NCBI RefSeq assembly: GCF_020921035.1
Contig: NC_063157.1
Span: 4,216,001-4,280,000 of the forward strand
Direction of reading: 5' to 3'
Origin: Rhodamnia argentea
Taxonomy: Eukaryota > Streptophyta > Magnoliopsida > Myrtales > Myrtaceae
DNA: 64,000 bases
Shown here piece after piece: positions 3,330 through 41,740 of this stretch (the stretch's first letter is position 1; the number at the start of each line of letters is the position of its first letter). The notes beneath the pieces are model-generated. The model made no database searches, had not been told where the DNA came from, and was given only the letters and a program-made list of their open reading frames with translations. Position numbers and translations under genes: made by a program.

Positions 3330-4260
3330 CAGAGTACTGGTGGGATGGAGTGAAAGGTAGAAAATTAGCAGAGGTCAGCAAATCAAGGATAACATAAGTA
3401 TCAGCTAATAGCACCAATATCTAAGAAAAAAAATTCTCTTATGCAATAATAACTAAGAAGAAATCCAAACCAATTAAAATCAGCACATCACACTCAAACA
3501 AATTCCAATAAGAAAGTATTTATCTCCACACCGGAACATTTTGATGACGAGCAAAGTGCGATGATTTGATACAAAATCAACAGCTGTAAATGTTGATTCC
3601 TAAGTGATGCATATTCAAGCAGCAGATAATCTTAGGACTTGTGGCGATAAAAATTGGGTCGTAGAAGATTGCTAATCTTAGTGCTTCATGTGCCTCCAAA
3701 ATGGATGATTCCACATGTAATCAGAAATTCACAGCTGCGCTTGACGTACTACTCATAAAAGAAAACTCTAGCCTCTTCTTCCTTCCAAGTGGGAATGATT
3801 CATCTACTGCAGGTACTTGGTGTTGTGACAGTTCATGCTACATTGCTCCAAGTTTTGGTGAGAGCCCACCATATTCACAACCACGTATAAAAAGAACGTT
3901 CTCGAGTTAAGAACTTCAGAGATCGGTTGTCATTCACCCTGTGGGTTAGACGCACGAGCAAAATCGAGAAACGCAGCACTGAACCCACCCAGTCTTGGTA
4001 CTTCTACGAACTCAGCAAATCTCTACGGAGAAGTCTGGACCAAAAGCCCCCAAACTCATAGTCAACTTTTAGGCACAAGTTAAGCAAATATCAAAAGCTA
4101 TTATTGATGCCCAGCGACTCCCGCAAGACATTTTCAAGACAAATGTTCCCGCAATTGCAAGAACGACGGGTAATAGGCCTAGTGAGCTATGCCAAAAGCA
4201 TCAATTTCTTTACGGCTTTAGCGCAAACTCCACTAGGCTGAAGATAGCATAAGGTTCTGC
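3330..4260. other. Spacer without recognisable gene
   Basis: An open frame of 69 codons at 3701-3910 (plus) has no recognisable family. Nothing else is supported before the tandem array begins at 4261. Confidence 0.4.
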
Positions 4261-5450
4261 CTCAATGTGAGAATTTAACCTTGCATTATAGGTTAGAAAC
4301 TGGCAAAACACTCCACCAGTTTAGTGGAATTTTCTCCACTCTCTCGACAATTGAACTCATAAAACATCTTCATTTCTTTCTAAAGAATAATTAAATCATG
4401 CTCTATGGCTATTAGCTACTGCTTCCCTTGATCTCCGCCACCACTCGGGCTCTGCTTCTATCAAGCCCAATGTTAAGCAACATTCTCCTTCCATGTAAAA
4501 ACTAAATTTTCAAAGAACTAAGTCGCATGTACCAGAGCAGAGATAAAGCCAAACACAACATTAAAACTCGACCTTAACTCGGAGGTCCATACCTTGTTCT
4601 TCCTTAATGTGAGACTTTAACCTTGCATTACAAGTTGCAAACTTGCAAAACACTCCACTAGTTCAGTGGAATTTTGTCCAATCTCTTGACAATTGAACTA
4701 ATAAAACATCTTCACTTCTTTCTAGAGAATTAGTTAAATCATGCTCTATGGCTATTACCTACTACTTCCCTTGATCTCTGTCACCACTCGAGCTCTGTTT
4801 CTATCAAGCCCAAGGTTTAGCACCATTTTCCTTCCATGTAAGAACTAAAATTTCAGAGAACTAAGTCGCATATACCAAAGTAGAAATGAAGCCAAACACA
4901 ATATCAAAACTCGACTTTAACCTGGAGGTCCATACCTTGTTATTCCTCAATGTGAGAATTTAACCTTGCATTACGGGTTGCAAACTTGCAAAACACTCTA
5001 CTAGTTCGGTGGAATTTTCTCCAATCTCTCGACATTGAACTCATAAAACATCTTCACTTCTTTCTAAAGAGTCAAAACTAAAGTTCAGAATCAAAACTAA
5101 AGTTCTTGCTCAATGTGAGAATTTAACCTTGCATTACAGGTTGTAAACTTACAAAACACTCCACTAGTTTAGTGGAATTTTCTCCAATCTCTCGACAATT
5201 GAACTCATAAAACATTTTCACTTCTTTCTAGAGAATCAATTAAATCATGCTCTATGGCTATTAGCTACTGCTTCCCTTGATCTTTGCCACCACTCGGAAT
5301 CTGCTTCTATCAAGCCCAAGGTTCAGCAACATTTTCCTTTCATGTAAGAACTAAAATTTCAGAGAACTAAGTCACATGTACCATAGTAGAGATGAAGCCA
5401 AACATAACATCAAAACTCGACCTTAACTTGGAGGTCAATATCTTACTTCG
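4261..5450. repeat. Tandem array, unit about 342 bp, 3.5 copies
   Basis: Units start with CTCAATGTGAGAATTTAACC at 4261, 4603 (CTTAATGTGAGACTTTAACC), 4946 and 5109. Spacings are 342, 343 and 163 bp, and the last unit runs to about 5450. The third unit is truncated internally. Each full unit contains the same landmarks in order: CACTCCACTAGT, TCTCGACAATTGAACT, CATGCTCTATGGCTATTA and GAACTAAGTCGCAT. Similarity looks near 90 percent by eye. No conserved reading frame was seen across units. Confidence 0.9.
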
Positions 5451-11037: not shown

Positions 11038-11109
11038 AAGGAGATTTGGGACTTCCTATTGATGTAAGGTATGTTGCAAACCATGATTATGGGTATATAC
11101 TAATATAGG

Positions 11110-12012
11110 TTGGAGCGATGCTAAAAGTATCACATGGATTCACCAGAATACTTTTGTTGTTAAAAGTAATAACCAAACCTTATCAAAATAATAATAATAA
11201 TAATAACTCGATCTTAGTTGTGCATAATTTTTCTCTGCATCTTCAAATTGACGCGATTTTTGCATCTATGAAAAACTTGTTATTCGACTATACAAAATAA
11301 GATTCTATAGAAGAAAATTTAATGGATTCAATGATTTTGATAAATAAAGCTAAAGAACATACAAGCAAAAATTCTAAAGTCAATGCCTGGGAGATAGTGC
11401 CCATAGGCAAATGTTATTATGAGTCGCTCATTTGCAAGAGTTGGGTATCGTTTATGAAGATATTAGGCCTAAGAGTGTTATGACTACCATCGGCTAAATT
11501 GATTGACATGGGAATTATTAAATGCCTGAGGTGAATGTGCCTTGGAAGATCTTGCATACAATAAGTTTAATCTTCTACGTTGGTAATCATGATATATTTA
11601 TCTAGGAAAAACTATTCTTGTTTGTGAGTTTGTGTTGATAACTGAAACCTCAACACGTCAAGACGCGGGGATGCTTCATCCTTGGTAACAACCAACACAA
11701 GAAGGCGATATGTTTAGTATTGGGTGTGTCTTCTTTTTTTGTGTCATGGCTGAAAATCCCACATTTGGCAATCTCATCTATCGCTTGCACGTAAGGCAGG
11801 CCAAACTCTCCCTTGTGTCAATTCGTAAAGACTTTTGGCCGATATTTTTGCTTTCTTGCAAAACTCAAATGACATTTTCATAAATTCGGATCACGAGCTT
11901 GTCATTGACATAAAGGTCGAGTTAATCTAAAATCAACTATAGTCAATGGCACTTTAAGGTCGGCTTAGATGCAAATTGCGAATCATTATTTTGGATATAC
12001 GCTAATATAGGT
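11110..12012 (+). pseudogene. Kinase-fragment unit A
   Basis: First full unit of the array. The catalytic-loop exon (about 11385-11575) is recognisable only by comparison with unit C, because its start codon context and frame are disturbed. The second exon (about 11690-11790) still reads EGDMFSIGCVFFFCVMAENP. It encodes no usable product as it stands. Confidence 0.6.
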
Positions 12013-13061
12013 TGGAGCAATGCTAAAAGTGCCACAATGGATTCACCATAATACTCTTGTCTTTAAAAGTAATAATCGAATCTTGCAAAAAAAAAAAACA
12101 ATACCCGAATCTTAATTGTGCATAATTTTTCGCGCATCTTCAAATTGACGAAATTTTTGCATCTATGAAAAAATTGATTTTTGACTATTCAAAATAAGAT
12201 TCTATTGAAGACAATTTAATGGATTCAATGGTTTTGGTAAATAAAGTTAAGAAACACACAATAAAATGGTAGATATTTTCATATTTTAAATGAATTGTTG
12301 ACTCACTAGAAAAAATTCTGAAGTCTACGCATGAGAGATAATGCCCATAGGGAAATGACATTAGGAGTCGCTCATTTGCAAGAGATGGGTATCATTCGTG
12401 GATATTACGCCTAAGAATGTTATGACTACCATCGACTATATTGACCGATATGGAAATTAGGAAATGTCTCCAAGGAGGGGAATGTGCTTTGGAAGATTCT
12501 ACTTACGGTAAGTTTGATCTTCTACGCTGGTAAACATGATAACTTTATGTAGGAAGAAGTATTCTCGTTTGAGAGTTTTTGTTGACACCCGAAACCTCAG
12601 CACAGCGAGGCACAAGGAGATGTTTCATCCTTGGAACAACCAACATAAGAAGGAGATATGTTTAGTCTTGAATGCGTCTTATTTTTTGTGTTATGGCTGG
12701 AAGTCATGCATTTGGCAAACTTCATCTATCACCTGCATGTCAATTCTCGATGGCCCCCTAGTTCGTGGCACTTCCCATGTCTCCGGCGTGTCAATTCGTC
12801 AAACAACACAAGGTAGACCAAACTCTCCCTTGTGTGGATTCATAAAAACTTATGGCCGATATTTTTCCTTCCTTATAAAAATCAATTGGCATTTTCAAAA
12901 TCTCGGATCACAAGCTTTGCATTGATATAAAAATCAAGTCAACCAAAAATCAACTATAGCCAATGACACTTTTAGGCAGGCTTAGATGCGAATTACGAAC
13001 CATTATTCTAGGTATATGCTACTATGGTATTTTTTTTGTTTGTTCGAACGCTAATGTAGGT
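12013..13061 (+). pseudogene. Kinase-fragment unit B
   Basis: The catalytic-loop exon begins at about 12323 and is followed by a GTAAGTTTGATC donor near 12509. The second exon near 12640-12760 retains a decayed form of the IRE1-like DLFSLG block. It is disrupted in several places. Confidence 0.6.
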
Positions 13062-14071
13062 TGGAGTGATGCTTGGAGTGTCACAATAGATTCACCATAA
13101 TACTTTTGTTGTTAAAAATAATAATGAAACCTTGCCAAAAAAAAGAACAATACTTGAATCTTAATTGTGCATAATTTTTTCGTGCATCTTCAAATTGATG
13201 TGATTTTTACGTCTATGAAAAACTTGTTATCCGACTATTCAAAATCAGATTCTATTGAAAAACAAATTAATGGATTCAATGATTTTGGTAAATAAAACTA
13301 AAGAACACACACAAAAAAACGTACATATTTTTCCTGTTTTAAATGAATTATTGACTTACTGATTGAAAATTCTAAATCCTACGCATGAGAGATAGTGCCC
13401 ATAGGGAAATAACATTAGGAGTCGCTCATTTGCATGGATTGGGTATCGTTCATGGAGATATTAGGCCTAAGAATATGATGACTGCCATCGGCGATATGGA
13501 AATTATCAAATGCCTCCAAGGAGGGGAATGTGCCTTGAAAGACCCTATCCAAGGTAAGTTTGATCTTCTACACTGGTAATCATGACAGCTTTATCTAGGA
13601 ATAACTATTCTTGTTTAAGAGTTTTTGTTGATACTTGAATCCCCAGCATTGCGAGACGCAAGGAGATGCTTCATCCTCGGGAACAATAACACAAGAAGGA
13701 GATATGTTTAGTCTTGGGTGCGTCTTCTTTTATTGTGTCACGGCTCGAAATCACAAACTCGGCAAAGCTCATCTATCACCCGCATGTCCATTGTGGCCCT
13801 CTTTCTCGTGGCACTTCCCAAGTCTCCGTTGTGTCAATTCGTCAAACAACACAAGGTAGGCCAAACTCTCCCTCCTGTCGATTCATAAAAAATTTTGGCC
13901 GATATTTTTGCTTCATTACAAAACTCCAATGGCATTTTCAAAAACTCAAATCACAAGCTTTCGTTGATATAAAAATCGAGTTATTAAAAAATCGACTATA
14001 GTCAATGACACTTTTAGATAGGCTTAGATGCGAATTGAGAATCATTATTCTAGATATACGCTAATATAGGT
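13062..14071 (+). pseudogene. Kinase-fragment unit C, best preserved
   Basis: Exon 13385-13553 reads GVAHLHGLGIVHGDIRPKN and ends in GECALKDPIQ before a consensus donor (AAG|GTAAGT). After an intron of about 93 bp the acceptor CCCCAG at 13646 opens an exon reading GDMFSLGCVFFYCVTARNH. The catalytic loop HGDIRPKN and the DMFSLGCVFF block match plant IRE1 (HRDLKPQN; DLFSLGCVLFFC) better than receptor-like kinases. The HRD arginine is glycine and no DFG exon is visible, so an active kinase is not expected. Assignment to IRE1-like kinases is from memory and moderate. Confidence 0.65.
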
Positions 14072-15022
14072 TGAAGCAATGCTAAAAGTGTCAAATTGGA
14101 TTCAAACCTTGCAAAAAAAAAAAAAAAAAGGAGCAATACCCGAATCTTAATTGTGCATAATTTTTTTGTGCATCTTCAAATTGATGCGATTTTTGCATCT
14201 ACAAAAAACTTGTTATTCGACTATCCAAAATAAGATTCTAGTAAAAAAAATTAATGGATTCAGGTAAATAAAGCTAAAGAACACAAAAAAAAAAATGGTA
14301 GATATTTTTCTTGTTTTAAATAGATTATTGACTACTAGAAAAAATTTCTAAAGCCTACACATGAGAGACCCGTAGGAAAATGACATTAGGAGCCGCTCAT
14401 TTGCTTGATATTAGGCCTACGAATGTTATGACTACCAGCAACTAAATTGATTGATATGTGAATTATCAAATGTCTCTAAGGAGGGGAATGTGCCTTGAAA
14501 GATCCTATCTAAGGTAAGTATGATCGTCTACATAATCACGACAGCCTTATCTAGGAAGAAATTCTCATTTGAGAGTTTTATTGATACATGAAACCTCCGC
14601 ACAGCGAGGTGCAAAGAGATGCTTCATCCTTGGGAAACAACCAACATGAGATTGTGACATGTTTAGTCTTGGATGCAGTATTTTTTGTGTGCCACACCTG
14701 AAAATAACGCATTTGACGAACCTCATCTATTGCCTGCATGTCGATTCTCGATGGCGCCTTTGCTTGTGGCACTTCCCAATTCTCCCTCGTGTCAATTCGT
14801 CATACAACACAAGGTAGGCCAAACACTCCCTCGGTCGATTGGTAAAAACGTTTGGCCAATATTTTTGCTTCCTTGCAAAACTCAAATGGCATTTTCATAA
14901 GTTCATATCACGAGCTTTTCGTTGATAAAAAAATCGAGTTAACTAAAACTCAACTAATGGCACTTTTAGGCAGGCCTAGATGCGAATTGCAAACCATTAT
15001 TCCGGGTACACGCTAATATAGG
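14072..15022 (+). pseudogene. Kinase-fragment unit D
   Basis: This is the most decayed of the first five units. The catalytic-loop exon (about 14360-14513) has lost the LHGLGIVHG segment but keeps the RPTNVM-like block and the downstream GTAAGTATGATC donor. The second exon near 14640-14700 has lost the FSLG reading frame. Confidence 0.55.
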
Positions 15023-16043
15023 TTGGAGCGATGCTAAAAATGTTCGAACAGATTCAACGTAATACTTTTTTCGTTGAAAGTAATAATCAAATCTTGCAAA
15101 AAAAAATAAACAATACTCGAATCTTAATTGTGCATAATTTTTTCGTGCATCTTCAAATTGATGTGATTTTGCATCTACAAAAAGCTTGTTATTCGACTAT
15201 TCAAAATAAGATTCTATTGAAGGAAATTTAATGGATTCAATGGTTTTGGTAAATATAGCTAAAGAACACACAATAAAAAAAAAGGTAAATATTTTTCCTA
15301 TTTTAAATGAATTGTTGACTCACTAGAAAAAATTTTGAAGCTTACACATGAAAGATAGTGCCCATAAGCAAATGACACTCGGAGTCGCTCATTTGCATGG
15401 GTTGGGTATCATCCATGGAGATATTAGGCCCAAGAATGTTATGACTTTGATCGGCCAAATTGACCGATATGAGAATTATCAATTGCCTCCAAGGGGGGAA
15501 TGTGCATTAGAAGATACTACTTATGGTAAGTTTAATCTTCTATGCCGGTAAACATGATAGCTTTATGTAGGAAGAAGTATTCTCGTTTGAGAGTTTTTGT
15601 TGATACCTGAAACCTCCGCATGGAGAGGCGCAAGGAGATGTTTCATCCTTGGATGTTCCAACACAAGAAGGAAATATGTCTAGCCTTAGGTGAGTCTTCT
15701 TTTTTCGTGTCACGGCTGGAAATCACGCAATTGACAAATGCCATCAATTTGCCTGCATGATAATTCTCGGTGGCCCCTTGCTCGTTACACTTCCCAAGTC
15801 TCCTTCATTTCTATTCGTCAAACAACACTAGGTAGGCCAAACTCTCCCTCGTGTCGATTCGTACAAACTTTTGGCTCATAGTTTTGCTTCTTTGTAAAAC
15901 TCAAATGGCATTTTTAAAAATTCCGATCACGAGTTTTCCGTTGATATAAAAATTGAGTTAACCAAAAATCAACTATAGTCAATGGCACTTTTAAGTGGGC
16001 TTAGATGCGAATTGCGAATCATGATTATAAATATGTTAATAGG
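15023..16043 (+). pseudogene. Kinase-fragment unit E
   Basis: The catalytic-loop exon (15348-15525) is open and reads GVAHLHGLGIIHGDIRPKN, ending in GECALEDTTYG before GTAAGTTTAATC. The second exon (about 15655-15730) is decayed. Together with unit C this exon is intact enough to infer the ancestral sequence family. Confidence 0.6.
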
Positions 16044-17343
16044 TTGGAGCAATGCTAAAAGTGTCATAATGGATTCACAGTAATACTTTTGTTGTTAAAA
16101 GTAATAATCAAACTTTGCCAAGAAAAAAACAAGACCCAAATCTTAATTGTGCATAATTTTTTCCGTGCATCTTCAAATTGATGCAATCATCTACAGTCAA
16201 TTTATTATTTGACTATTCAAAATAAGATTCAGTTGAAGGAAACTTTAATTGATTCAATGGTTTTGGTAAATAAAGCCATTTTCAATCATTTCTTAGCTAG
16301 CTAGAAGAACTCCTTCAACTCTAGGAAAGCGTGAGAGATGGTATCGTCTTTATGTGCAAATCTAGTGTTTTGATGAAAGAGTGGGAAAACATCACGTAGT
16401 GTATTTCCATGTCGAATGTGAATTTCGACTAAAAAATGTCAAATGTGAACATATGACCTAGGAAAAAATCAAACTTTTCAAAATGAGACTGCAGATTAAG
16501 AGAAGTCGGATTTCATGTAATTGAAATGAAAAGAAGTTCGGAGGAATTCAAATGTGCAAAGAAATGGAAATAAAATGAAAGGAGCGGGTTCGTGTGCGTA
16601 TCATCTTTCGCCGCCATCCAATGGATACTTCAAACAGATGCATGTTCATCAGAAGATCCTACAAGCCGTTCCACAACTTGGTCCACATAGGAACCACGTC
16701 ATTCAACAAGAAGTAGCCTCCTTGTGCAGTAGGAATTAAGATGAATGTTTGAGGGCGGATAACATAAGTAATGTACATTAGCATGCTAGACAGAGCACAC
16801 AAAACTATGAACCGATCTAGTCGGTGAAGTTTTCTTCTCTGTGGAGAAGTGGCCTCCATTTTTTTTTTTTTTTTGGTTTCCCTGCAAAACTTGAATGACA
16901 TTTTCAAAAGTTAGGATTACGAGCTTTTCGTTGATGAAGAAATCGGGTTAACAACAAATCAATTTACTCGAATGAGACTTTTAGGCGGGCTTAGATACTA
17001 ACCTTAGACCAAGATTCGAGGTACGCTATATAAGTTGGACCGATGCTGAACAATGGATTCATGGTAATATTTTTGTATTTAAAATTAAGAATTAAATCTT
17101 ACACCCTTGCAATGTTCAACTGACTCGATTTTTTCATCTACGGGAAGCTTATTATTTGAAGTTTTTAAAATAAGATGCTATTGGAGAAAATTAAATTTAT
17201 TCAATGGTTTTAGGAAATAAACCTAAACAATACAAATGCAAAAAAAGTACATACTTTTCTTGTTTTATTTTTGACTCGTTACAAGAACTCCTACATCTTA
17301 GCAATGCCTTAGATATAGTACCCATATTCATGGGTAAATATAG
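16044..17343 (+). pseudogene. Terminal kinase-array units F and G, rearranged
   Basis: Unit F keeps the spacer landmarks up to about 16280 but the kinase exons are replaced by unrelated sequence. That insert contains a minus-strand open frame at 16659-16907 with a hydrophobic segment and no recognised family. The GAGCTTTTCGTTGATGAAG landmark returns at 16920, and unit G (from 17034) is cut at 17343 by a MITE. Confidence 0.5.
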
Positions 17344-30519: not shown

Positions 30520-31540
30520 CGATTTGATAACGATTATAATCCAAAAAAGTAATTCTAATTAAAATCATATTTTATGATTCTGTTTTCCGAATGATTTTTA
30601 GAGAATCAGAATACGTTTGGTAATTGCACAAAATTTCTATTCCGAAAACAACTAGGTGGCGGGAATTCTTTTTTTAAAAATTTTTTAACATTTAAAAAAA
30701 ATTAATTTTTTTAACTTCCCCCCATTTTTTTAATTTTTAAATTTTTTATTTCCCTCCCCCTTCTTTTTAAATTTTTTTGTTAAATTCTTAGGCTTATTTT
30801 TAAATTTAATTTTACAAATTGTATTTATAAAAATTAGTTTTTAATTTTAATTTTTTAGTTTTTTAAAAAAGTTAAGAAGCCGATGTGGACTTAAAATTTT
30901 TAAAAAAACTGAGATTTTTTTCCTTTTTGTAATTCTCAAAAGTGATTTTTTTCCAAAATGAACTTTTTTTATTCTTTCTTTTTGTTAAATTCTAAGGTCC
31001 GTTCCCAGAAACATTTTTAGAGCAAAAATAAAAATAAAACAAAGTTGATTCTGAAAAAAAAATCACTTTTAAGAATTAAAAAAAAAATAAAGTCTCCATT
31101 CTTTTAAAAAGAATAAGTCCACGTGGACTTCTGAACTTAAAAAAAATGAAAATTAGATTTGAAAATTTTGGAATAACTAATTTTTTAAATGCATTTTTTA
31201 AAATTAAATCTAAAAATGAGCTTTAGAATTTAACCAAAAAAAAAATGAAAAGCAGAGGGGAGATTTAAAATTTTAAAAAAATTAAAAAAGAAAAAAAATA
31301 ATATCTTTTAAAAATTGAAAAATGGGGGAACTATAAAGATTTCAAAAAAACTTCAAAAAAATTAAAAATTTTAAAAAAATTTTAAAAAAAAATTCTTGCT
31401 ACCTAGTTATTCCCTGAAACAGAAATTTTGTGTAATTACTAAATGCATTCTGAATTTCTAAAAATCATCAAGGGAATAGAATTAGAAAATATGATTCTGA
31501 TCATAATTACTTTTTTGGATCAAAATCGTCAAACAAGCTT
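30520..31540. mobile_element. AT-rich giant palindromic foldback element
   Basis: The left arm (GATTTGATAACGATTATAAT, then TCCAAAAAAGTAATTCT, then CACAAAATTTCTATTCC) is mirrored at 31380-31540. The right arm, inverted, reads TTTGACGATTTTGATCCAAA, TAATTATGATCAGAATCAT and CACAAAATTTCTGTTTC. The interior is almost pure A/T and itself inverted around about 31030. The length is about 1.0 kb with no coding capacity. Termini of the form GGGCCGATTTGATAACG resemble plant hAT-type MITEs, but no clear target duplication was found. Confidence 0.7.
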
Positions 31541-31678
31541 AAAGGTATTCAACTCTATTGAGCCAAGTAGAGATTTGACTAGTTTTTTCCTTAAAAAACC
31601 AGGAGAGGATTTTAAAGGACTTAGCTTTGTCACCTCTATTGTCTTGTCGTCTTGAGAGTAGAAATTAAAAGTAAAGGT

Positions 31679-32080
31679 TAATATCACGAAAAAGTATAAA
31701 CTTGTATACATATGTCAATTTTATCTCAAATTAATTTTTTGATCACCTAAAATTTCAAATTAGTATATATGTGATAAATTCACCTTCCGTTAGATTCCGT
31801 TAAATGATACACGACAGTTGATGGATGTACCGATTTGGGATTTTTACCGTCCTTTTTTTAAAGGTATATCAAATTTAGATTTTATACGATTTTAACTGAA
31901 ATTAACAGAGGGTAAATTTGTTATAGGTGTATCGGTTTGATTTTTTTTTTTTTTTTTTGTGATCAATAAATTAGTTTGGGGTAAGATTGTCATAAGTATA
32001 TCAATTTAGAAATTTTTGTGGTAAAAAAATATTTAGGATAAATTTATTAGAAGCGTACTAATTTGAATTTTTCATTGCAT
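31679..32080. mobile_element. MITE of the same family as 50685-51198
   Basis: The left end TAATATCACGAAAAAGTATA and internal phrases (ATCTCAAATTAATTTTTTGA, GTGATAAATTCACC) match the element at 50685-51198. The middle carries the same CGTTAGATTCCGTTAAATG-like turn-around. The right end is decayed and the target duplication is not clear. Confidence 0.6.
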
Positions 32081-32369
32081 CAAGGGTGAAAGTAATGATA
32101 TATCAGATTAAGAACTAAAATAATCTAAAAAAGGGTTTTTGCCTCACATCGACTAGAAGGATGAGAGACAATTACATGCTACGAAATGGCAGAAGAAAAA
32201 CAATAGAAGACTCATCTCCGTGCCCGGGGGTGGCAACGAGAACTAATAATCGATGATGTTTATTGCTGGTTGAAAACTAATTCCAAACCCCTCTTTCGCC
32301 TTGTTTCTGCCCTAGCCATCAAGAATTTCTGGAAGGGTTTCTTTTCTAGCCTGCCATTTCACATAAAAA

Positions 32370-33280
32370 ATCAATCAATGTCTTCCAATCGAAATCTCGA
32401 GCTTATTTGCCCCTCCTCGCGTCTCTAGCAATCGCCAGACTGTCTTCACAATGGGGAGATCGGCCCCATCGTCGAAACTCCCGACGGAGTTGTGGTCGAT
32501 GATCGGGAAAAAACTCGACACCCAAATGGACATGGACCGGTTTCGTAGCATGTGTTCGTCGTGGCATTCCTCACTACCTCCCGTCTCAGAGTTGCAGCTC
32601 GGAATTGGAGAGGCCCGGGTCTATCTTCTCGAGCCGCCACCAACGTCTACGGAGCTACCATTTTTCACAACGGAGATTACAACGCCGTCTAGCACTTCTG
32701 CTTTTTCTCCTGCGAAGGCATTTGCAACCTGTGGATGCAAAGCCGTGTGGTGCTTGTCAGTCTTCTTCGTTACCTATTTAATCTGTCTTATCCTATGCAA
32801 CCATGGCGTGTTCGTCAGAGAAACTCGAGCTCGCATCTTCTTCAAGTTGTTCCGACATGGAATATTTAAAGATCAGAGTATAGAAGAGAACTATAGTCTT
32901 TGCGAATTGTAGAAGAGGATATAGAGAAGCAAGAAGAGAGAAGGAGCTCCTCTTTGTTTGTTAGTGAGCACGCGGTTGTGACCAGCTATGAACTTAGTCG
33001 TAGCCGACGCGATGCTTATGGAAATTGTCGGTAAAGCAAAGATCGCTCATTAACAAATCCGCGCCAAGACGCTTGGATGTTTTGCAAAGATACTGGATTT
33101 TGTGGAATGCTTTCCTGATGGAAGTAAAAGTGCCCAAGCAATCTGCTCATGTTGGAACAGAAGGCTTTTCCTACATGGCTTTGTTTCAGGTGTTTTGGCT
33201 CGTCCTAGAGAGAGAATGGCTTTGTTCCTAGTCTGCTTTAACTCAGGCACTCACGAGCATCTCTGGACATTGCTCTGTTT
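32370..33280 (+). pseudogene. Chimera: F-box gene 5' part joined to LTO1 3' part
   Basis: The first part, 32370-32640, including the ATG at 32451, reads LPTELWSMIGKKLDTQMDMD and MCSSWHSSLPP. It is a close relative of the 5' end and leader of the F-box gene at 36116-36390. At about 32650 it switches, in frame, to LPFFTTEITTPSSTSAF, which is exon 5 of LTO1. The sequence then follows LTO1 intron 5 (GAACTATAGTCTTTGC, TGTGACCAGCTATGAACTTA), exon 6 (FAKILDFVECFPDG) and intron 6 (TGGCTCGTCCTAGAGAGAGA). The open frame stops at 32912 inside the LTO1 intron part. The thioredoxin CxxC is lost. Because introns are included, this is a genomic rearrangement, not a retrocopy. A short truncated F-box product of 153 residues is possible on paper. 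Confidence 0.85.
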
Positions 33281-33283
33281 TCG

Positions 33284-33676
33284 GAGCAAAAGAACACTTT
33301 AAGTACCAATATTTGTGTACGGTGCTCACTTTGATGTCAATATTTTTTTTATCGCTTAAATACCAATTTTTTTGAAAAATGATTATTTAAGTATCAACTC
33401 CGGTGACGTCGCCGAAATTTCTTGCCGTTGACACTAAAGTGATCTTTTTTTCTCCGATTAGTACTAAAATGATTATTTTTTGGATCACTTTTATTGTCAT
33501 TTTTTTTTAAAAACGATTATTTAAGTGCTAACTTTGGTGAGGTCGTGAAATTTCTCGCCGTTAGTACTAAAGTGATTGTTTTTTTCTCCGATTTGACACT
33601 TAAATGATCTCCAAAAAATATCGATACGAAAGTGAGCGCCGTACGCAAATATTGGTACTTAATGTATCCTTATGCT
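33284..33676. mobile_element. Foldback MITE next to the chimera
   Basis: The left end GAGCAAAAGAACACTTTAAG plus TACCAATATTTGTGTACGG pairs with the inverted right end GAGCATAAGGATACATTAAG plus TACCAATATTTGCGTACGG. Two internal direct repeats carry CTCGCCGTTAGTACTAAAGT-like phrases. The CGTACGG word recalls the 17344 element, but the outer termini differ. No certain target duplication was found. Confidence 0.75.
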
Positions 33677-34084
33677 CTTTTTTCTGCTATTGCTAATGAT
33701 GGCATAATCTATCATCCACTTGTTCTTCATCGGCAAACCCGATAGTACCATTAAGCTCCAGAGAAAAGAGTTCCTTGAACGCGGCTGCAAAGCATTGGGA
33801 GTTGATGCTTCTCATATGGGGAAGGAAATGAGTTCCCATCAGATCGAACGTTTTCAGCACAAAAAAAAAAAAAAAAAGAGAGAGAGAGATCTAGAAATCG
33901 GGAACTGCTCTAGAATCGGCTAGCTTATATAAATTATTCCACACCACACCGGTTTTTTTAGATTTTTCCAACATCTAACACAACTTAAATGTTCATTTTA
34001 AACACCTATTATGAAACAACACGCATGCATTTTCACACCGACCATGCCACTATGAAATGGGGATGTCCTGTCCAATCAACTCAG
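33677..34084. other. Short spacer
   Basis: A 67-codon frame at 33720-33923 (plus; KLQRKEFLERGCKALG) looks protein-like but I do not recognise it. It runs into a poly(A) and (GA) tract at about 33860-33888. Confidence 0.3.
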
Positions 34085-34094
34085 TTGTATTTAA

Positions 34095-34587
34095 GGAAAA
34101 ATTATTAAAAAAGTCATAAATCTATCTTATTTTTGTTAATTCGGTTTTATATCTTTTAATTTCGTTAATTAAGTCATAAACCTTTTGTATTTATGACAAT
34201 TCAATCATAAACTTTTTTTTGTATCAATTCAGTGTTAAACATTTTATATTTATATAAATTCAATCCATCCGACCAACTTTGATCAGACTGCATCGACATG
34301 ACAATTTTTAATAATATTTTGATACTTTTCTCAAATTTATATTTTTTTGTTCTTTTTATTTTTTTTATTTTTGGTTCTTCTTCTTCCTCTAGCCACCGGC
34401 TATCGGCTAGAGGCGGCTGAAGGGGAGGGCCAGGCGGCCACCAGCGTCGTTGGGTGAGGCCAAATCACGCCATGGGTGGGCGAGAATCGACCTTGCCAAA
34501 TCTAGATGAGGCCGAGATCACCCAGCCATGGCATCACCATTGCCAATTCCTTCCTTCGAATCCCTCGTCTTGTTCCCAAGCTAGCCA

Positions 34588-34678
<91 letters not shown>

Positions 34679-35133
34679 CTTTAGGTTTGAGTTGGAGGAA
34701 GGAACAGGCAAAGGCGACGCCATGGCTAGCAAGGCCGAGCCTCGCCTAGCCATGGCGTGGCTTGGCCTCACCCAACGATGCCGGCACCAATGGCCCTCTC
34801 CTCTAGCTGGTTGCCGGCAAGCCAGCGGCGGGAGGAAGAAGGAGAACTAAAAAACCAAAAGTTTTACAAAAAAATAAAACTATAAAAAATAAAAAAAATT
34901 AGTAAAATATTATTACAAATTGCCACGTTAGCGCTAACCCGACAAAGTTGGTTGAATGGACTGAATTGGCATAAATGCAAAAGATTGATGACTAAATGGA
35001 CATAAAAAAAAAAAGGTTTAGGACTGGATTTGTACAAATGCAAGTGGTTCATGACTGAATTGGTAAAATTAAAAAGTTTATTACTGAATTGACAAAAATG
35101 CGATATGTTTAAGATATTTTTGACAATTTTTCC
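34095..35133. mobile_element. 1.04-kb palindromic foldback element with (CT)n apex
   Basis: The ends are GGAAAAATTATTAAAAAAGT and, inverted, GGAAAAATTGTCAAAAATAT. The flanks TTGTATTTAA (34085-34094) and TAGTATTTAG (35134-35143) agree at 8 of 10 positions, a Mutator-like target duplication. The outer arms (about 250 bp) are AT-rich. The inner arms (34380-34590 and 34680-34860) are GC-rich and also inverted copies of each other: CGTTGGGTGAGGCCAAATCA against CGTTGGGTGAGGCCAAGCCA. A pure CT tract lies at the apex. There is no transposase. Confidence 0.85.
34591..34674. repeat. (CT)42 microsatellite
   Basis: Eighty-four bases of uninterrupted CT lie almost exactly at the midpoint of the surrounding foldback element. 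The apparent serine-leucine open frames here are artefacts of the repeat. Confidence 0.97.
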
Positions 35134-35143
35134 TAGTATTTAG

Positions 35144-36185
35144 ATATATTGCTTCCTGTTTCATCGGTGTTTATTGTGACCATCAACGTAAAGAAAATAT
35201 TTAGTGGTTTGCAAGCGCCACATCAGCCGCCGATGTGGCGTGCAATTTTTTTTTTTTTTAACCATGAACCAATTAGAACTTAACATATGAATATGACCTG
35301 GCACCTCCGCCATTGGTGATGGCAAAGCGAGACGGGGAAATTGGGCTCAAAGTGACCAGAGATGGAGGAAGAAACGCATGAGGAGATGGGAACCGACATG
35401 GATTGAGATTTTTTATTTGTCATAGGCCAAATCCAGGCCTATATATGTGTGTGTGTGTGTCAAGCTCTAATTGGGACAAGATGAAATAGCTGCCGATGTG
35501 ACGCTTGCAGATCGGAACAGAATTCCCTAACATTGTTTGGCATGTTAGAAGTGACATGGTAGATTCGGGCCATCCAAATAAAAAATGAACGCCCCAATTG
35601 ATCCACATCACTAGATATTTTCTCGCCTATATGGGGCCCAGCGAGCAAATAAAGAAAACAAGAAACAAATGAATGGAAGGAAAAAAAAAAAAAAGCGAGA
35701 AAAGTCGAAACAAAGGAAAAAGACAAAAGAGAAAAAGGCGAAACGAGGAGAGAGTGCGGATTGTCTGCGTGGAGTTAGTGCCGGAGAGAGGAAAGAGGAA
35801 AACAGCGTAGGGGATGCGAGTCTCGGCCCAGCGAGCGAAGAGCAGGGGAAAGAAAGAAGAAAACAGGGCTGCCATTTTCTGGTCAATTCGAAGCTTAAAC
35901 ATCGACGGAATTGACTCACATTTTGGTACGTTGTTCGTGAGATCGAGGACTACGAATTGATCTCCGAATTCTCTAATCATGGTTAGGATTTTTGTTATCT
36001 TATTTGTATTGTTGATATTGAGTGCCTCTGTGCGTTACTGAAGAGAAGCCTTTGCGTATCCTTCGTTACAATTGGAAAGCAGGACCTACTAGACTGGGGT
36101 GGCAAAACATTCGCCGTCTTCCTATCGAAATCTCGAGCTCAATTGCCCTCCTCGTGTCTCTGGACGATCGCCAGGCCGTATTGCG
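35144..36185. other. Spacer and 5' region of the second F-box gene
   Basis: Purine-rich stretches at 35670-35880 and a short (TG)n at about 35448-35460 are present, with no gene. The last 70 bases before 36186 (CCTATCGAAATCTCGAGCTC) are the leader shared with the chimera at 32375-32450. Confidence 0.35.
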
Positions 36186-37328
36186 ATGGAGCGATCGGTC
36201 CCGTGGCCGGAACTCCCGACTGAGTTGTGGGCGATGATCGGGCGAAAGCTCGACACCCACATGGACGTAGACCGGTTTCGCAGCGTCTGTTCGTCCTGGC
36301 GTTCCTTGATACCTCCTGTCCCGGCGTTCAAAATCAGAATTGGAGGGACCCTCATTGAACGCATGGTCTATCTTCTCGAGCGACCACCGTGGTCTCTGGA
36401 GGACTCGCAGTGCTCTCCGTCTCGCGAAGGTTGGTTGATCAAGGTCGCTGGAAAGGCCACAGAAGATGAGGACTTAAGTGGTCAAGGCAAGTTTCAGCTC
36501 TTCAATCCGCTCTCAAGCCTACCCATCTTGTTCGAAGACGGGACCTTTCCTAAGGTTTTGTGTCCTATGGATTATAGGGTCACTGACATTTTTTCAGAAC
36601 TTTATCTCATAGGAGGGTATGGACAAAGTTATGAAGCAAAGAAGGTGGTCATACTTCGGGATTCTCCAGGGACCGCTCTAGAGGAGACTTTGGTTGTTGG
36701 GATTTTTGGTAAAGGGAAGCTAAAGTATTGGAAACATCAGGATGAGGATTGGAATGCGTTGGACGATCCGAATTGCCAATACGATGATGTCATTGCTTAC
36801 AAAAGGCAGTTTTATGTTGTTGATAGGTTTGGCATTGTGTCCTGGATCGATCCTTCTTTTAAGATCGTGCAGTTCTCACCTCGTGTTTGCGGCGACGGCA
36901 GGGTCGGGGACCGGAAGCACCTGGTGGAGTCAGGCGGAGATCTCTATGTGGTGGATCGATATTTCGATGAGGAGGATAAACGTTGTGGGATGGCTGCGAT
37001 GGATACTGCTAATTTCAAGGTTTATCGGCTGAATCAAGAATGGGGAAAATGGGATGAGATAAGGGATCTCGGTGAAGTTGCTCTCTTTCTGGGCGATTAC
37101 AGTTCCTTCTCGGTGATGCTGAAAGGATTCAACGGATGCAAGGGGAACTGCATATATTTTACAGATTGCAGAGACAGGAGAGTTCGAGTATTTGATATGC
37201 CGGATCGCAGCATCAAGAAGGCATTGTGTTCGCCCGATCACCTGAGGATCCTGTGGCCACCCCCGGCTTGGATCGCCCCGAATGGGTTCGTCCTGAGTCC
37301 TTGCTCGCGCAAGGAGCTGATATTCTAG
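36186..37328 (+). CDS. F-box protein, SKIP23-like, with DUF295 domain
   Basis: An intronless gene of 380 codons. The start chosen is the ATG at 36186 (MERSVPWPELPTELW), because the in-frame extension upstream has no ATG. It has an F-box at residues 5-50 (ELPTELWAMIGRKLD, FRSVCSSWRSLIPP), then DUF295 with HLVESGGDLYVVDRYFD, LGDYSSFSV, GNCIYFTD and the terminal LRILWPPPAWIAP. Like other SKIP23-type proteins it probably pairs with SKP1/ASK in an SCF ubiquitin ligase; the substrate is unknown. It is intact. Its leader and N-terminal part are duplicated in the chimera 4 kb upstream, and a full paralogue lies on the minus strand at 21640-22797, so the family has expanded locally. Confidence 0.92.
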   Translation: MERSVPWPELPTELWAMIGRKLDTHMDVDRFRSVCSSWRSLIPPVPAFKIRIGGTLIERMVYLLERPPWSLEDSQCSPSREGWLIKVAGKATEDEDLSGQGKFQLFNPLSSLPILFEDGTFPKVLCPMDYRVTDIFSELYLIGGYGQSYEAKKVVILRDSPGTALEETLVVGIFGKGKLKYWKHQDEDWNALDDPNCQYDDVIAYKRQFYVVDRFGIVSWIDPSFKIVQFSPRVCGDGRVGDRKHLVESGGDLYVVDRYFDEEDKRCGMAAMDTANFKVYRLNQEWGKWDEIRDLGEVALFLGDYSSFSVMLKGFNGCKGNCIYFTDCRDRRVRVFDMPDRSIKKALCSPDHLRILWPPPAWIAPNGFVLSPCSRKELIF

Positions 37329-37329
37329 T

Positions 37330-38966
37330 TAATTCAGAGCAGAGCTCGTGAGTTGGATAAGATACAATGAGAACCGGCGTGTAATTGCTTAGTTGAACAG
37401 GGAGAGGAAAGAGTTTTTATCTTTTTCCAATTTGCATTTGCGTACAACCTTGATGATCAAATATTTTTGCATGCTTGTTTTGCCTTCTTTCTTTTGTCAT
37501 TTTTAAGCTGTGAGGGACAATGTAGTTCTTCGAGTTTGTCCTACTCTCTGCTCCCGCCGTGCCATGTCTCGTTACCGTCTTTGTCGATCTCATCCTATTC
37601 AATTCCGGGCATATGCGTGAAATCAGAAGCAGGTGAAGATTTAGATTTTCTGGTTATGGCACAGTGATTCCTGATTCTCAGCTTACGGCGGACTGTGCTG
37701 AAAATAATTTCTTCCTTGTCTGCATATGATGTGCCTTCAACTTGAGTTTCATCTTTTGCATTACCTTTAATGTGGCTAATGAGAAGCCTGAGTAGGAAGG
37801 AACAGAAGACCGGCATGGAATGAACTAAGTGCATTCCAAAGTGGCATGGAAGGTGTCCCACATTGACCGGTAGTAACATGGAAAGGTCAAATCAGTTATA
37901 TATAAACAGGGATTTTCTAATTTGTTCAGTATCTTTGCGCTTGGGGCAATGACGCAGCTAGTGAGGTTCTAACCGAGGCGCGTCTATTGCTGGTTGAAAA
38001 CTATTTCCAAACCCCCTCTTTGGCCTGGGTTCAAACTCAGACCATTGAGAATTTCTGGAAGGGCTCCCCATTGGGTGAAGCCCTACAATTCTAAGTTCAA
38101 AATATGATTGGGATGATTGGGTATTTGCGTGAGTTGTGGCTTGTTATAACCGATCAGAACTTGCCTATTGGAATGCTTTCTTCATGATTGTCCAAAGATA
38201 TGTTTATTTATAATGGTGACATACCTTTTGCTACCAGAACCGAGCCGGGTCAGTAAAAACCCAGATTTCCTTCACAAATCACATTTGAAGGAGAAGTAAA
38301 ATCTTCAATGGTTGATGTTCAAGAAGGGATGTTGCCGGGCCAGCAGAAGCACCTGCAGTGTTCTCGACAACTATGGCGAGCTAGTCAGACTGGAGCTTCT
38401 TCAAGTACAACGAGAAAGACGGCTGAGAATGAGTCGGTAACCAAGAGGGAGAACGATATGGAATTTGACGGATAAAGGTAGGATACGGAAAGAGACGGAT
38501 TTGACCAAGTTCTGGTGTGCTATGGCGCTACTATTTCTCACGATTCAATTTTGGGGTTTGAAGTTTGAAATCATTGTTAAAACAGTCAAAATAACTGTTT
38601 ATTTACTTGATACCCGAACAAGAAGACCCGCCCAAAAAATTTCGATTTGGGTTATAGGTCGGTTCAGTCCGGGAAATATTGACACTCCTGGATGTGCATC
38701 AAAACATGTCAATGGACCAAACAATGTACAAGCCTCTCATAGAGACATTTCATTAAATATGTACAGAAAAAGATAGGTACGAGTGACCTGATATTTGAGA
38801 CAAACGTTACAATTTCCACAAAAGTAAAAAAAAAAAAAAGGAGCTTTCCTGATGCCCAATGATTTGTAAAGCAACTAGTAAAAGAGAAGCACCATCTCAG
38901 ACTATGTATGATGTGTGCCGGTGTATTGGGAAATGGAAGTTATGCAGATCACAGAGATGAAGCATC
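37330..38966. other. Intergenic region between F-box gene and LTO1
   Basis: No gene is recognised. A segment at about 37984-38070 (TTGCTGGTTGAAAACTATTT; GAATTTCTGGAAGGG) also occurs at 32262-32345 upstream of the chimera. The two genes converge here. Confidence 0.4.
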
Positions 38967-41740
38967 TTAGCTAAGTCCTCTAAGTTCGTTAGATTCAAAT
39001 CCAGATGCTCGGGCAAGCTCTGACAATTCTTGCTCTCCGCTCAAAACCTGCAATGGATGAATTTCGGTGAGAACTCAATTTTTTTTCCTAGACAAGAATC
39101 ATCAACTCGAAACGCTTTGCAGCAAACACAAAGGAAAGTAATATTGGCCCCTTTCAGCATTTTGTAATTGATGGATCATGCAATCAATGCCCAGAGATGC
39201 TGGCGACTATTTTGAGTTAAAGCAGTCTGGAAACAGCTTTTGACCAGGAATAAAGCCATTCTCTCTCTAGGACGAGCCAGAAAACCTGAAATGAGGAAAT
39301 CCCCATACCTCACCATTTATCAGCCATGTAGGGAAGCCTTCAATTCCAACATCAGCACATTGCTTGGCTATTTTAGTTCCTTTCTTGTATCCATCAGGAA
39401 AGCATTCCACATAGTCCAATATCTTTGCCGCGTCGCGTCCAAACATCTGAATGCACATTGTTAATGAGTAAGCTTGTTTCACTGCAAATTTCATTAGCAC
39501 TATGTCGGCTATGACTAAGTTCATAGCTGGTCACAACCACATGTTCGCTAACAAACAAAGGGGAGCTCCTCTCTTCTACTCCTCTAAGCTCCACTCACCA
39601 ACAATTAGACAGGACGGGTTTCTGTGAAGTATATCCTCTTCTATATATTGCAAAGAGTATAGTCCTAACTTAAATTCTTAACTTCAGACATATTAAGAGA
39701 GATCAATTAGAAGAAGATGCGCAGTCGAGTTTCTCTAATGACCACACCATGGACCCAAAGGAGAAGACAGATCAAATAGATTCTGGAGGACCAATTACCT
39801 GCTTTTGTTCCAAACAGTGAGAGCACCAAAAGGCACCATACATTTTTGCACCTATAGAGTGCAAATGCCTTGCAAGAGAAACAGCAAAAGTGCTCGATGG
39901 TGTTGTAATCTCGGTTGTGAAAAATGGTATTTCCATTTCAGCAAGGCTGCTCAAATAAAGAAAGAAGAGAAAGTAGCATCAGGCAAGTGCATGCCTTCCA
40001 ATAAAAAATCGTTAAATGCGAATTCTAATTTCAAGAGATTTATGGTCGTTATTCTAGAGGAAATTCTCAAGCGAAGCTTTTCATTTACAACTCCTTCCAA
40101 GAAACACAATATATCTCAACAATCAATGGTGTGAATTGGTATAGAAGACACACCATTCAATTTAGCCAAAATATTTCAACTAAAAAAAATAGCCAAAATA
40201 TTATATGTTTGACAAAAACTGCAGATGGACTGGAGACTAATAGACGATGTGCCACCTTGAAGGGATTGATTGAGTAGTGCTATATGCAGTGCTCAGCGTA
40301 ACTACCACCAAGCTCACCATGCATAGCTGTAGTCCCATCGTCTTTTGTATCTCCTCAAACCCAAAATCCTGAGTAGGCAATTGACAGAATCATTAGGTCT
40401 TATTCCACTAACCACCACCTTAATCACTAGTACATGAAAGAGAATAGGAATTTACAGAGAGCACACCTTTATGGTAACTAAGAATAAACTGAATGACAAT
40501 AAAGCTGACAATAGACAGTAAGAGCACGATGCTCCAGAGAATTTTGTGCTCAAAAGGTACAAGAAGTATGCGCTAGCAGTTGCCATGGATGTCGTGATCC
40601 CAAGCAAAACCAAACGACCATTAGATTCCCCAAGTCCAAAAGGAAAATCTTTTCCTGTCAACCTTATGCCAAGAGCGGCAACAGTTCCATATGCAATCAT
40701 TCCAATCAACGGAAGAGGAATGCCTGTGAAGGCAAACATATCGTGATCAAAGTCTGCTTTCAACACAATTCCACGAGAGGATTTAGATGCATTCCTGGTA
40801 TGCAGATTTATTTGTCTGAATGCATGAGAACGGATGCAGTCAGATTTTATTTAAGCCAATCACTAAAGCATAGTGCTATCAAACGCAGTCGGATGCATCA
40901 AGGCATAAGTTAAACCCCGTTCCCACATGCCAAAAACCAGCATATCAAGTCGAAGAAGTGACAAATGCAAGATTGCTGCAACTTCACATTGCAAATGATC
41001 AAGATGCCTAAACAGCCAAAAACATATGCTAAAGAGTGCAGAGATTCATCTAATGCTCCCTTCTCTCAAATTTCCGCTAAAAACGACTATCAAACAAAGC
41101 AAAGCAATTGTGAAAAAGGCTTTCTCTAAGGTTCGCACTTCGGACAATAAAGTCCCGTAAGTTTCTGGAAATCTATCGTACTTCATCGCAAGAATATTAA
41201 GGAAACAAAGGGTATTGATAATTTAGCAGTAGAACGTTACTACACAGATCAAAAAGTGGAGACTGAAGAGAATACCAAAAACAGAAGCATAATCGCTGTT
41301 GAGCACGTCACCGCAGCTGCTGCCGCCGATAGGGCAAAACGCGTCTGAGTTTGTGAGCTTGAGATACGTCAAGTACGCAGTCTCGCAAAACCCTACGCCT
41401 CCAATACCCGCGCACAACTTGTAAGTCGAGCCGCTCGACGATGAAGCAGCACCAGCAGTAGCAGAAGACAACGACGACGTGCCGGCCTCCGATTCTGACT
41501 CCTGGCTCTCTCCGGATGACGAGCACTTCACCTGAACCACAAAAGCTCTGAGCTCACGAGTACGGGAAAGAAAGAAAAAAAAAACTAAATTGGCGAAATA
41601 CATAAGACGAAGGTGGTCGTCCTGCGTCGCACCTTGAATTGAAGTGATCGACGAGCGAAGGGAGGAGGAACCAGGCGAAGAGAGGCTGTGAGGTTGGAGA
41701 GGAATGGAGAAGATGGCGGCGCGTTGAGGAGACGCGCCAT
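38967..41740 (-). CDS. LTO1: Thiol-disulfide oxidoreductase LTO1 (VKOR-thioredoxin fusion)
   Basis: Seven exons, all with GT-AG junctions and matching phases: 41740-41633, 41531-41276, 40723-40467, 40368-40256, 39946-39799, 39446-39309 and 39047-38967. They give 366 residues against about 376 in Arabidopsis. Residues 1-70 are serine-rich and transit-peptide-like. The VKOR domain (about 75-240) has the loop pair C102 and C109 (CPIGGSSC) and the active site CSYC at 188-191 among four to five membrane helices. The thioredoxin-like domain (about 250-345) has FWCSHC at 284-289 plus C309 and C324. All eight redox cysteines expected of LTO1 are present. In Arabidopsis LTO1 sits in the thylakoid membrane and forms disulfides in lumen proteins, including PsbO, needed for photosystem II assembly. 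Its exon 5 to intron 6 region has been copied into the chimera at 32.6-33.3 kb. Confidence 0.95.

Follow-up and report, generated by a model that had tools for sequence, protein, structure and literature searches.

The fused locus described here is very probably an old, decayed chimeric pseudogene of a known kind, unprocessed (that is, copied as DNA), in which the 5' end of an F-box/KIB1-4 gene is joined to an inner portion of LTO1. It lies in a 64-kb stretch of the Rhodamnia argentea assembly (346.7 Mb in 74 contigs; the window analyzed corresponds to C8:4216001-4280000), and the first-pass annotation of that window had proposed a DNA-level fusion of these two genes. Both a self-comparison of the window and a search of the whole assembly showed that the fusion is real. 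In the self-comparison, 32380-32654 matched 36116-36401 on the plus strand (76%, E 6e-54), corresponding to the leader and the initial 72 codons of an intact F-box/KIB1-4 gene, and 32656-33233 matched the opposite strand at 39929-39242 (E 1e-56; 66%, gaps included), corresponding to LTO1 from inside exon 5 via intron 5 and exon 6 into part of intron 6. An extra match in intron 6 (41 columns, 33 of them identical) takes the LTO1 similarity to 33272. The LTO1 part is thus inverted relative to the present LTO1 gene, as annotated, and the predicted LTO1 similarity beyond 32650 is present over 32656-33272; the annotated course through intron 6 was correct from exon 5 into intron 6, but the similarity ends inside that intron. 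The features of the locus and its surroundings are given in Table 1.

Table 1. Features of the fused locus, its intact relatives and the adjacent repeats (window coordinates).
Feature	Position	Strand	Remarks
Dispersed short repeat copy, just upstream of the F-box piece	32258..32337	+	8 other assembly places, 71-86%
F-box gene leader (5' untranslated) piece	32376..32450	+	alignment to sequence before 36186
F-box N-terminal coding piece, 68 codons	32451..32654	+	alignment to intact gene
Junction	32649..32658	+	alignments to both relatives
20 codons of LTO1 exon 5 that retain the LTO1 frame	32655..32714	+	
End of the open frame (65 residues): exon 5 remnant out of frame, unspliced intron 5	32715..32909	+	
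Remainder of LTO1 intron 5, ending near the exon 6 acceptor	32910..33083	+	boundary approximate
LTO1 exon 6 remnant	33084..33180	+	boundaries approximate
LTO1 intron 6 remnant, partial	33181..33272	+	
394-bp terminal-inverted-repeat element, MITE-like	33284..33677	.	65-nt arms, 85%
Intact F-box/KIB1-4 (SKIP23-like) gene	36186..37328	+	Pfam Beta-prop_KIB1-4 7.7e-42
Intact LTO1 gene, 7 exons	38967..41740	-	spliced frame 366 aa
LTO1 exon 5	39946-39799	-	
LTO1 exon 6	39446-39309	-	
LTO1 exon 7	39047-38967	-	

The assembly search with 32380-33280, in which the best candidates were scored, listed 16 matches including the locus itself. The best non-self matches were the intact F-box gene and LTO1 (E 3.8e-52 and 7.4e-55), and a second copy of the fusion was not found, none of the 13 other matches listed carrying both parts. 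Since divergence between the fused parts and their relatives is roughly 15-28% when gaps are left out, the fusion is not an assembler join of near-identical copies. Its designation as a pseudogene is based on a similarity to functional parents that is well over chance (E-values above), on the partial retention of introns 5 and 6, and on lesions that are disabling in comparison with the parents, including a frameshift, the loss of exon ends and splice donors, and missing domains. As such, the fusion probably lacks function.

Of the full-length relatives, the intact F-box gene matches the F-box piece best, and SKIP23-like is the label that we presume to be appropriate for it. The gene at 41740-38967 was named LTO1 because its product combines a VKOR domain (Pfam, residues 75-206, 1.3e-27) with a C-terminal stretch bearing a CSHC motif; there was no Pfam report for the thioredoxin-like part of the product. 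LTO1 is described in PMC3842002 as a VKOR fused to a thioredoxin-like domain. Both gene identities in the first-pass annotation are therefore upheld, and its exon numbering matches the 7-exon LTO1 model.

The junction and the open frame across it

At the joint both relatives carry TGGA and the fusion has CGGA, a weak microhomology, and the LTO1 part begins at about the fifth or sixth codon of exon 5. An open frame of 153 residues, annotated as an in-frame joining of the two genes, is present at 32451-32912. The junction is indeed in frame, but the agreement with the LTO1 frame lasts only about 21 codons: 32652-32714 reads ELPFFTTEITTPSSTSAFSPA compared to EIPFFTTEITTPSSTFAVSLA in LTO1 (17/21 identical), beyond which one inserted base shifts the frame. 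The 153 residues consequently comprise 68 from the F-box piece, 20 from LTO1 in frame and 65 from exon 5 read in a shifted frame and from intron 5 left unspliced. The idea that the open frame encodes a meaningful F-box protein with an LTO1 tail is not supported, because the tail leaves the LTO1 frame, enters unspliced intron 5 and shows no codon-position bias in its changes (22/66, 18/66 and 20/65 over the three positions in 32712-32909; chi-square p = 0.82).

Part of the openness of the tail was inherited by accident, given that frame 2 of LTO1, the same off-frame as that of the tail, is itself open over 76 codons (39937-39710). When the LTO1 letters are placed on the gap pattern of the fusion, two stops fall in the tail, where the fusion stays open. 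The tail was left open in 3.9% of 20,000 random-substitution trials (69 changes in 261), and the F-box part (44 changes in 204) stayed open in 16% if all changes were placed on the fusion branch and in 37% if half were, all of these simulations having been computed after the frame was seen and with one assumed direction of change. By the 3.9% value, the openness of the frame somewhat exceeds the expectation under one neutral model, which counts against the pseudogene reading.

Decay of the LTO1 part

Like LTO1, the fusion carries DNA from exon 5 to intron 6; unlike LTO1, it has lost the frame, the splice donors and the CXXC region, and it has no VKOR, since it begins at approximately LTO1 residue 250. 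In the exon 5 remnant, 26 bases were deleted along with the intron 5 donor. In the exon 6 remnant, 27 bases were deleted in three events, the last of which extends through the intron 6 donor, and there is one 1-base insertion. Because the exon ends and the donors of introns 5 and 6 are deleted, LTO1-like splicing of the fusion is impossible. The CSHC codons of LTO1 lie inside a deletion gap in the MAFFT alignment; BLAST places the gaps slightly differently, but the motif is still broken. The LTO1 frame in the remnant runs to ...AKPCGACQSSSLPI before reaching a stop, and the CGAC found there is off the position of the LTO1 motif. No match to exon 7 or to exons 1-4 of LTO1 was detected in 32131-33760.

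Identity outside gaps was 79.8% for exon 5, 71.7% for intron 5, 81.1% for exon 6 and 84.9% for intron 6, giving no sign that the exons were protected more than a constrained parent by itself would explain. The alignment also bears out the annotated presence of LTO1 introns within the fusion, and because introns 5 and 6 came along, the fusion must have been copied as DNA and not from mRNA.

The F-box part and the decay of its family

The leader and the F-box end of the fusion come from the KIB1-4/SKIP23-like family, but unlike the genes of that family the fusion has no beta-propeller domain (no Pfam KIB1-4 match in the fusion frame, versus 143.9 bits in the intact gene). The leader piece differs from the intact gene by three 1-base indels, and leaders resembling it occur in the F-box array at C8 2.48-2.50 Mb. 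Upstream of the leader, no sequence shared with the intact F-box gene was found at the threshold used. The coding piece is free of stops and frameshifts, and its translation is 61-65% identical to that of the intact gene (residues 1-72). It is without 12 bases, in frame, that the intact gene has, the sole indel there; this cleanness, next to a short leader with three 1-base indels, counts against the pseudogene reading. The piece had been described as a full F-box. Similarity to an F-box is present but weak, the Pfam F-box-like scores being 13.3 bits for the whole 153-residue frame and 15.3 bits for the F-box part alone, both under the cut-off of 24.3 bits, and the match spans only profile positions 2-33 of 47. 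The intact paralogue, at 20.6 bits, likewise falls under that cut-off.

The dN/dS of the F-box part relative to the intact gene was 0.46-0.48 (53 and 65 codons) and not 1, which counts against the pseudogene reading; such a value would also be expected with one constrained and one unconstrained branch, without being proof of that. Changes were polarized over the first 45 F-box codons, with a 22-kb paralogue as the sole outgroup. The changes unique to the chimera were distributed as 4, 5 and 5 over the codon positions, and seven replacements were derived in the chimera versus two in the intact gene (4 unpolarized). The relative-rate count of 14 for the chimera versus 7 for the intact gene (3 unpolarized) was not significant (p = 0.19).

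Decay is frequent in this family. The intact F-box protein gave 69 match rows in the assembly, 26 of which have in-frame stops, although these rows are pieces and one F-box copy may supply several of them. A tandem F-box/KIB1-4 array at C8:2483193-2499530, with approximately 0.87 kb per unit and in-frame stops in 20 of 25 rows, is a mass of pseudogenes of the same F-box family. The account of F-box superfamilies in 18 plant species in PMC3030570 reports many pseudogenes, enriched at loci without recruitment modules, and describes these pseudogenes as often interrupted by intron-like sequence. The fusion fits this plant F-box pattern, in that it resembles the broken copies without a recruitment module in a superfamily of fast birth and death; it differs from the pseudogenes described there in that, where its 3' part was lost, it carries a piece of an unrelated gene for a chloroplast protein. 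On a small scale, the fusion clearly illustrates how genes are broken, and their pieces joined to neighbours, within an F-box cluster that is duplicating.

Where the fused pieces came from

The intact genes lying 3.7 and 6-8 kb away had been put forward as the direct sources of the two pieces. They are the best matches, but neither the F-box tree nor a partial LTO1 copy on C9 supports direct descent from them. In a tree of 13 F-box leaders and N-termini, the chimera, the intact gene and a copy on C4 form no settled branching, and the chimera and the intact gene were grouped in 3% of 200 bootstrap trees. The C4 copy (C4:19866719-19867701) is an internal-deletion pseudogene that consists of the F-box leader and about 31 first codons beside the 3' flank of the gene, followed by the repeat block of the window; its 5' stub matches 36068-36278 and then, after 4 bases, 37514-37740, such that most of the coding region is missing. 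The C9 copy (C9:15564810-15565166) comprises LTO1 intron 6 together with a portion of exon 6 (91%), as well as exon 7 (87%), and then carries the same SINE-like repeat as the window. In a three-way alignment of exon 6/intron 6, the unique sites numbered 13 for the chimera, 9 for LTO1 and 6 for C9 (2 sites all different, 110 shared), and at all 9 LTO1-unique sites the chimera has the C9 state. An intron 6 block present in LTO1 is missing from both the chimera and C9. Given the unsettled F-box tree and the intron 6 states in common with C9, the fused pieces may stem from older or lost copies.

From the F-box - repeat - LTO1 block of the window, C4 retains the F-box and the repeat, and C9 retains LTO1 and the repeat. 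These partial blocks suggest that the F-box/LTO1 neighbourhood may have been duplicated and lost repeatedly. A search of the window flanks aimed at marks of a whole-genome-duplication block found no matches at C4:19.86 Mb or C9:15.56 Mb among the best 39 of 4780 and 40 of 1475 candidates.

How the pieces may have been joined and whether the product works

We propose that the 5' part of an F-box gene was copied as DNA and that an inner stretch of LTO1 would have been copied, inverted and joined end to end with it, probably through end-joining repair during or after duplication of the F-box/LTO1 neighbourhood. The product would then have decayed, losing its frame, having its splice donors and CXXC region deleted and coming to have a MITE-like element at its 3' edge. 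We infer end-joining after duplication because the best matches are nearby, there is microhomology at the joint and no element ends were found. It is unlikely that transduplication took place instead, with a Pack-MULE, CACTA or Helitron capturing fragments of both genes, combining them between its ends and inserting them at this locus; that scenario concerns the route of joining only, as its product would still be a pseudogene. In the accounts of PMC13317346 and PMC1947982, gene fragments captured between DNA transposon ends are in most cases pseudogenes without function, and chimeric ones occur, a description that the fusion resembles in being made of host-gene fragments, and repeats flank the locus on both sides. 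However, among 19 inverted pairs detected in 31400-34100, only A/T runs and a single AT-rich pair of 14 nt bracket the fusion, and the best inverted 14-mer match between the flanks (12/14) was equalled by 11 of 60 random zone pairs. No terminal inverted repeats of the kind that define a Pack-MULE were found around the fused fragments in 31400-34100 and the flanking zones. Also unlike a Pack-MULE or Helitron, the fusion is single among the matches listed in the assembly search and its best-matching relatives are within about 8 kb.

With respect to the product, it is highly improbable that the fusion is a young working gene whose 153-residue truncated F-box protein would be translated, bind SKP1 and compete with full F-box proteins. 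Such a role could draw on the open frame, on an F-box part without stop or frameshift and with weak F-box similarity, and on the 3.9% openness of the tail under one neutral model, but the F-box score below the Pfam cut-off, the origin of the tail from frame-shifted exon 5 and intron 5 with no codon-position bias, the deleted splice donors and an upstream region unlike that of the intact gene at the threshold used all argue against it. The SKP1-competitor reading of the first-pass annotation would rest on little besides the open frame. We give a similarly very low probability to a partly de novo F-box decoy, for which the leader would have to have kept or gained promoter activity and the F-box to bind SKP1, with a largely new tail and no substrate domain. 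Were it expressed, the frame would represent a natural decoy of the F-box type, its tail derived for the most part from intron DNA. A non-coding role, with the LTO1-like stretch regulating LTO1 or F-box genes through a transcript or through small RNAs, is extremely improbable, as the LTO1 similarity is only about 72-85% outside gaps, which is low for small-RNA targeting. Such a role has a parallel in maize elements, in which captured gene pieces are reported as siRNA reservoirs able to silence donor genes (PMC13317346). The chimeric pseudogene assignment is accompanied by a caution: an open frame that spans a fusion junction should not be taken for a chimeric gene before its frame, splice sites and domains have been compared with both parents.

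Repeats and elements around the locus

Both the repeat that lies shortly before the F-box piece and the MITE-like element bordering the fusion on its 3' side are read as separate insertions. The upstream repeat, which also occurs at 37982-38063 in the window, was considered as a third captured gene on account of a protein-like frame; that candidate was rejected, since an alignment of 10 copies, 7 of which begin at the same 5' word, indicates a dispersed SINE-like repeat. The repeat is about 160-175 bp long, with window copies at 37931-38097 and 32258-32337, and by its look the latter is probably SINE-like and outside the joined genes. The SINE reading is not clean, as similarity continues into the flanks for about 100 bp in the window, C4 and C3 copies, and beyond the repeat also in those of the fusion and C1. 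The copy at the fusion is closest to one at C8:2.444 Mb (86%), a place that also has upstream DNA in common with the fusion; no F-box remnant was found there at the thresholds used.

The inverted pair 33284-33348/33613-33677 was considered as bracketing ends of the fusion and was rejected because it belongs to the separate, high-copy MITE-like element, for which there are at least 39 other long matches at 79-82% (best 40 of 1450 candidates). Farther downstream, 33714-33781 is a 68-bp match (79%) to C9:15952964 within a stretch of longer open frames, perhaps a transposon or endogenous viral remnant. An inverted-repeat element of about 1 kb (34094-35134), with arms of approximately 400 nt at 71% and a long CT run in the middle, lies in the interval that separates the fusion from the intact F-box gene. 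Elsewhere in the window, 11074-16276 and 4250-5444 are tandemly duplicated blocks with approximately 75-83% and 89-91% identity between copies, respectively.
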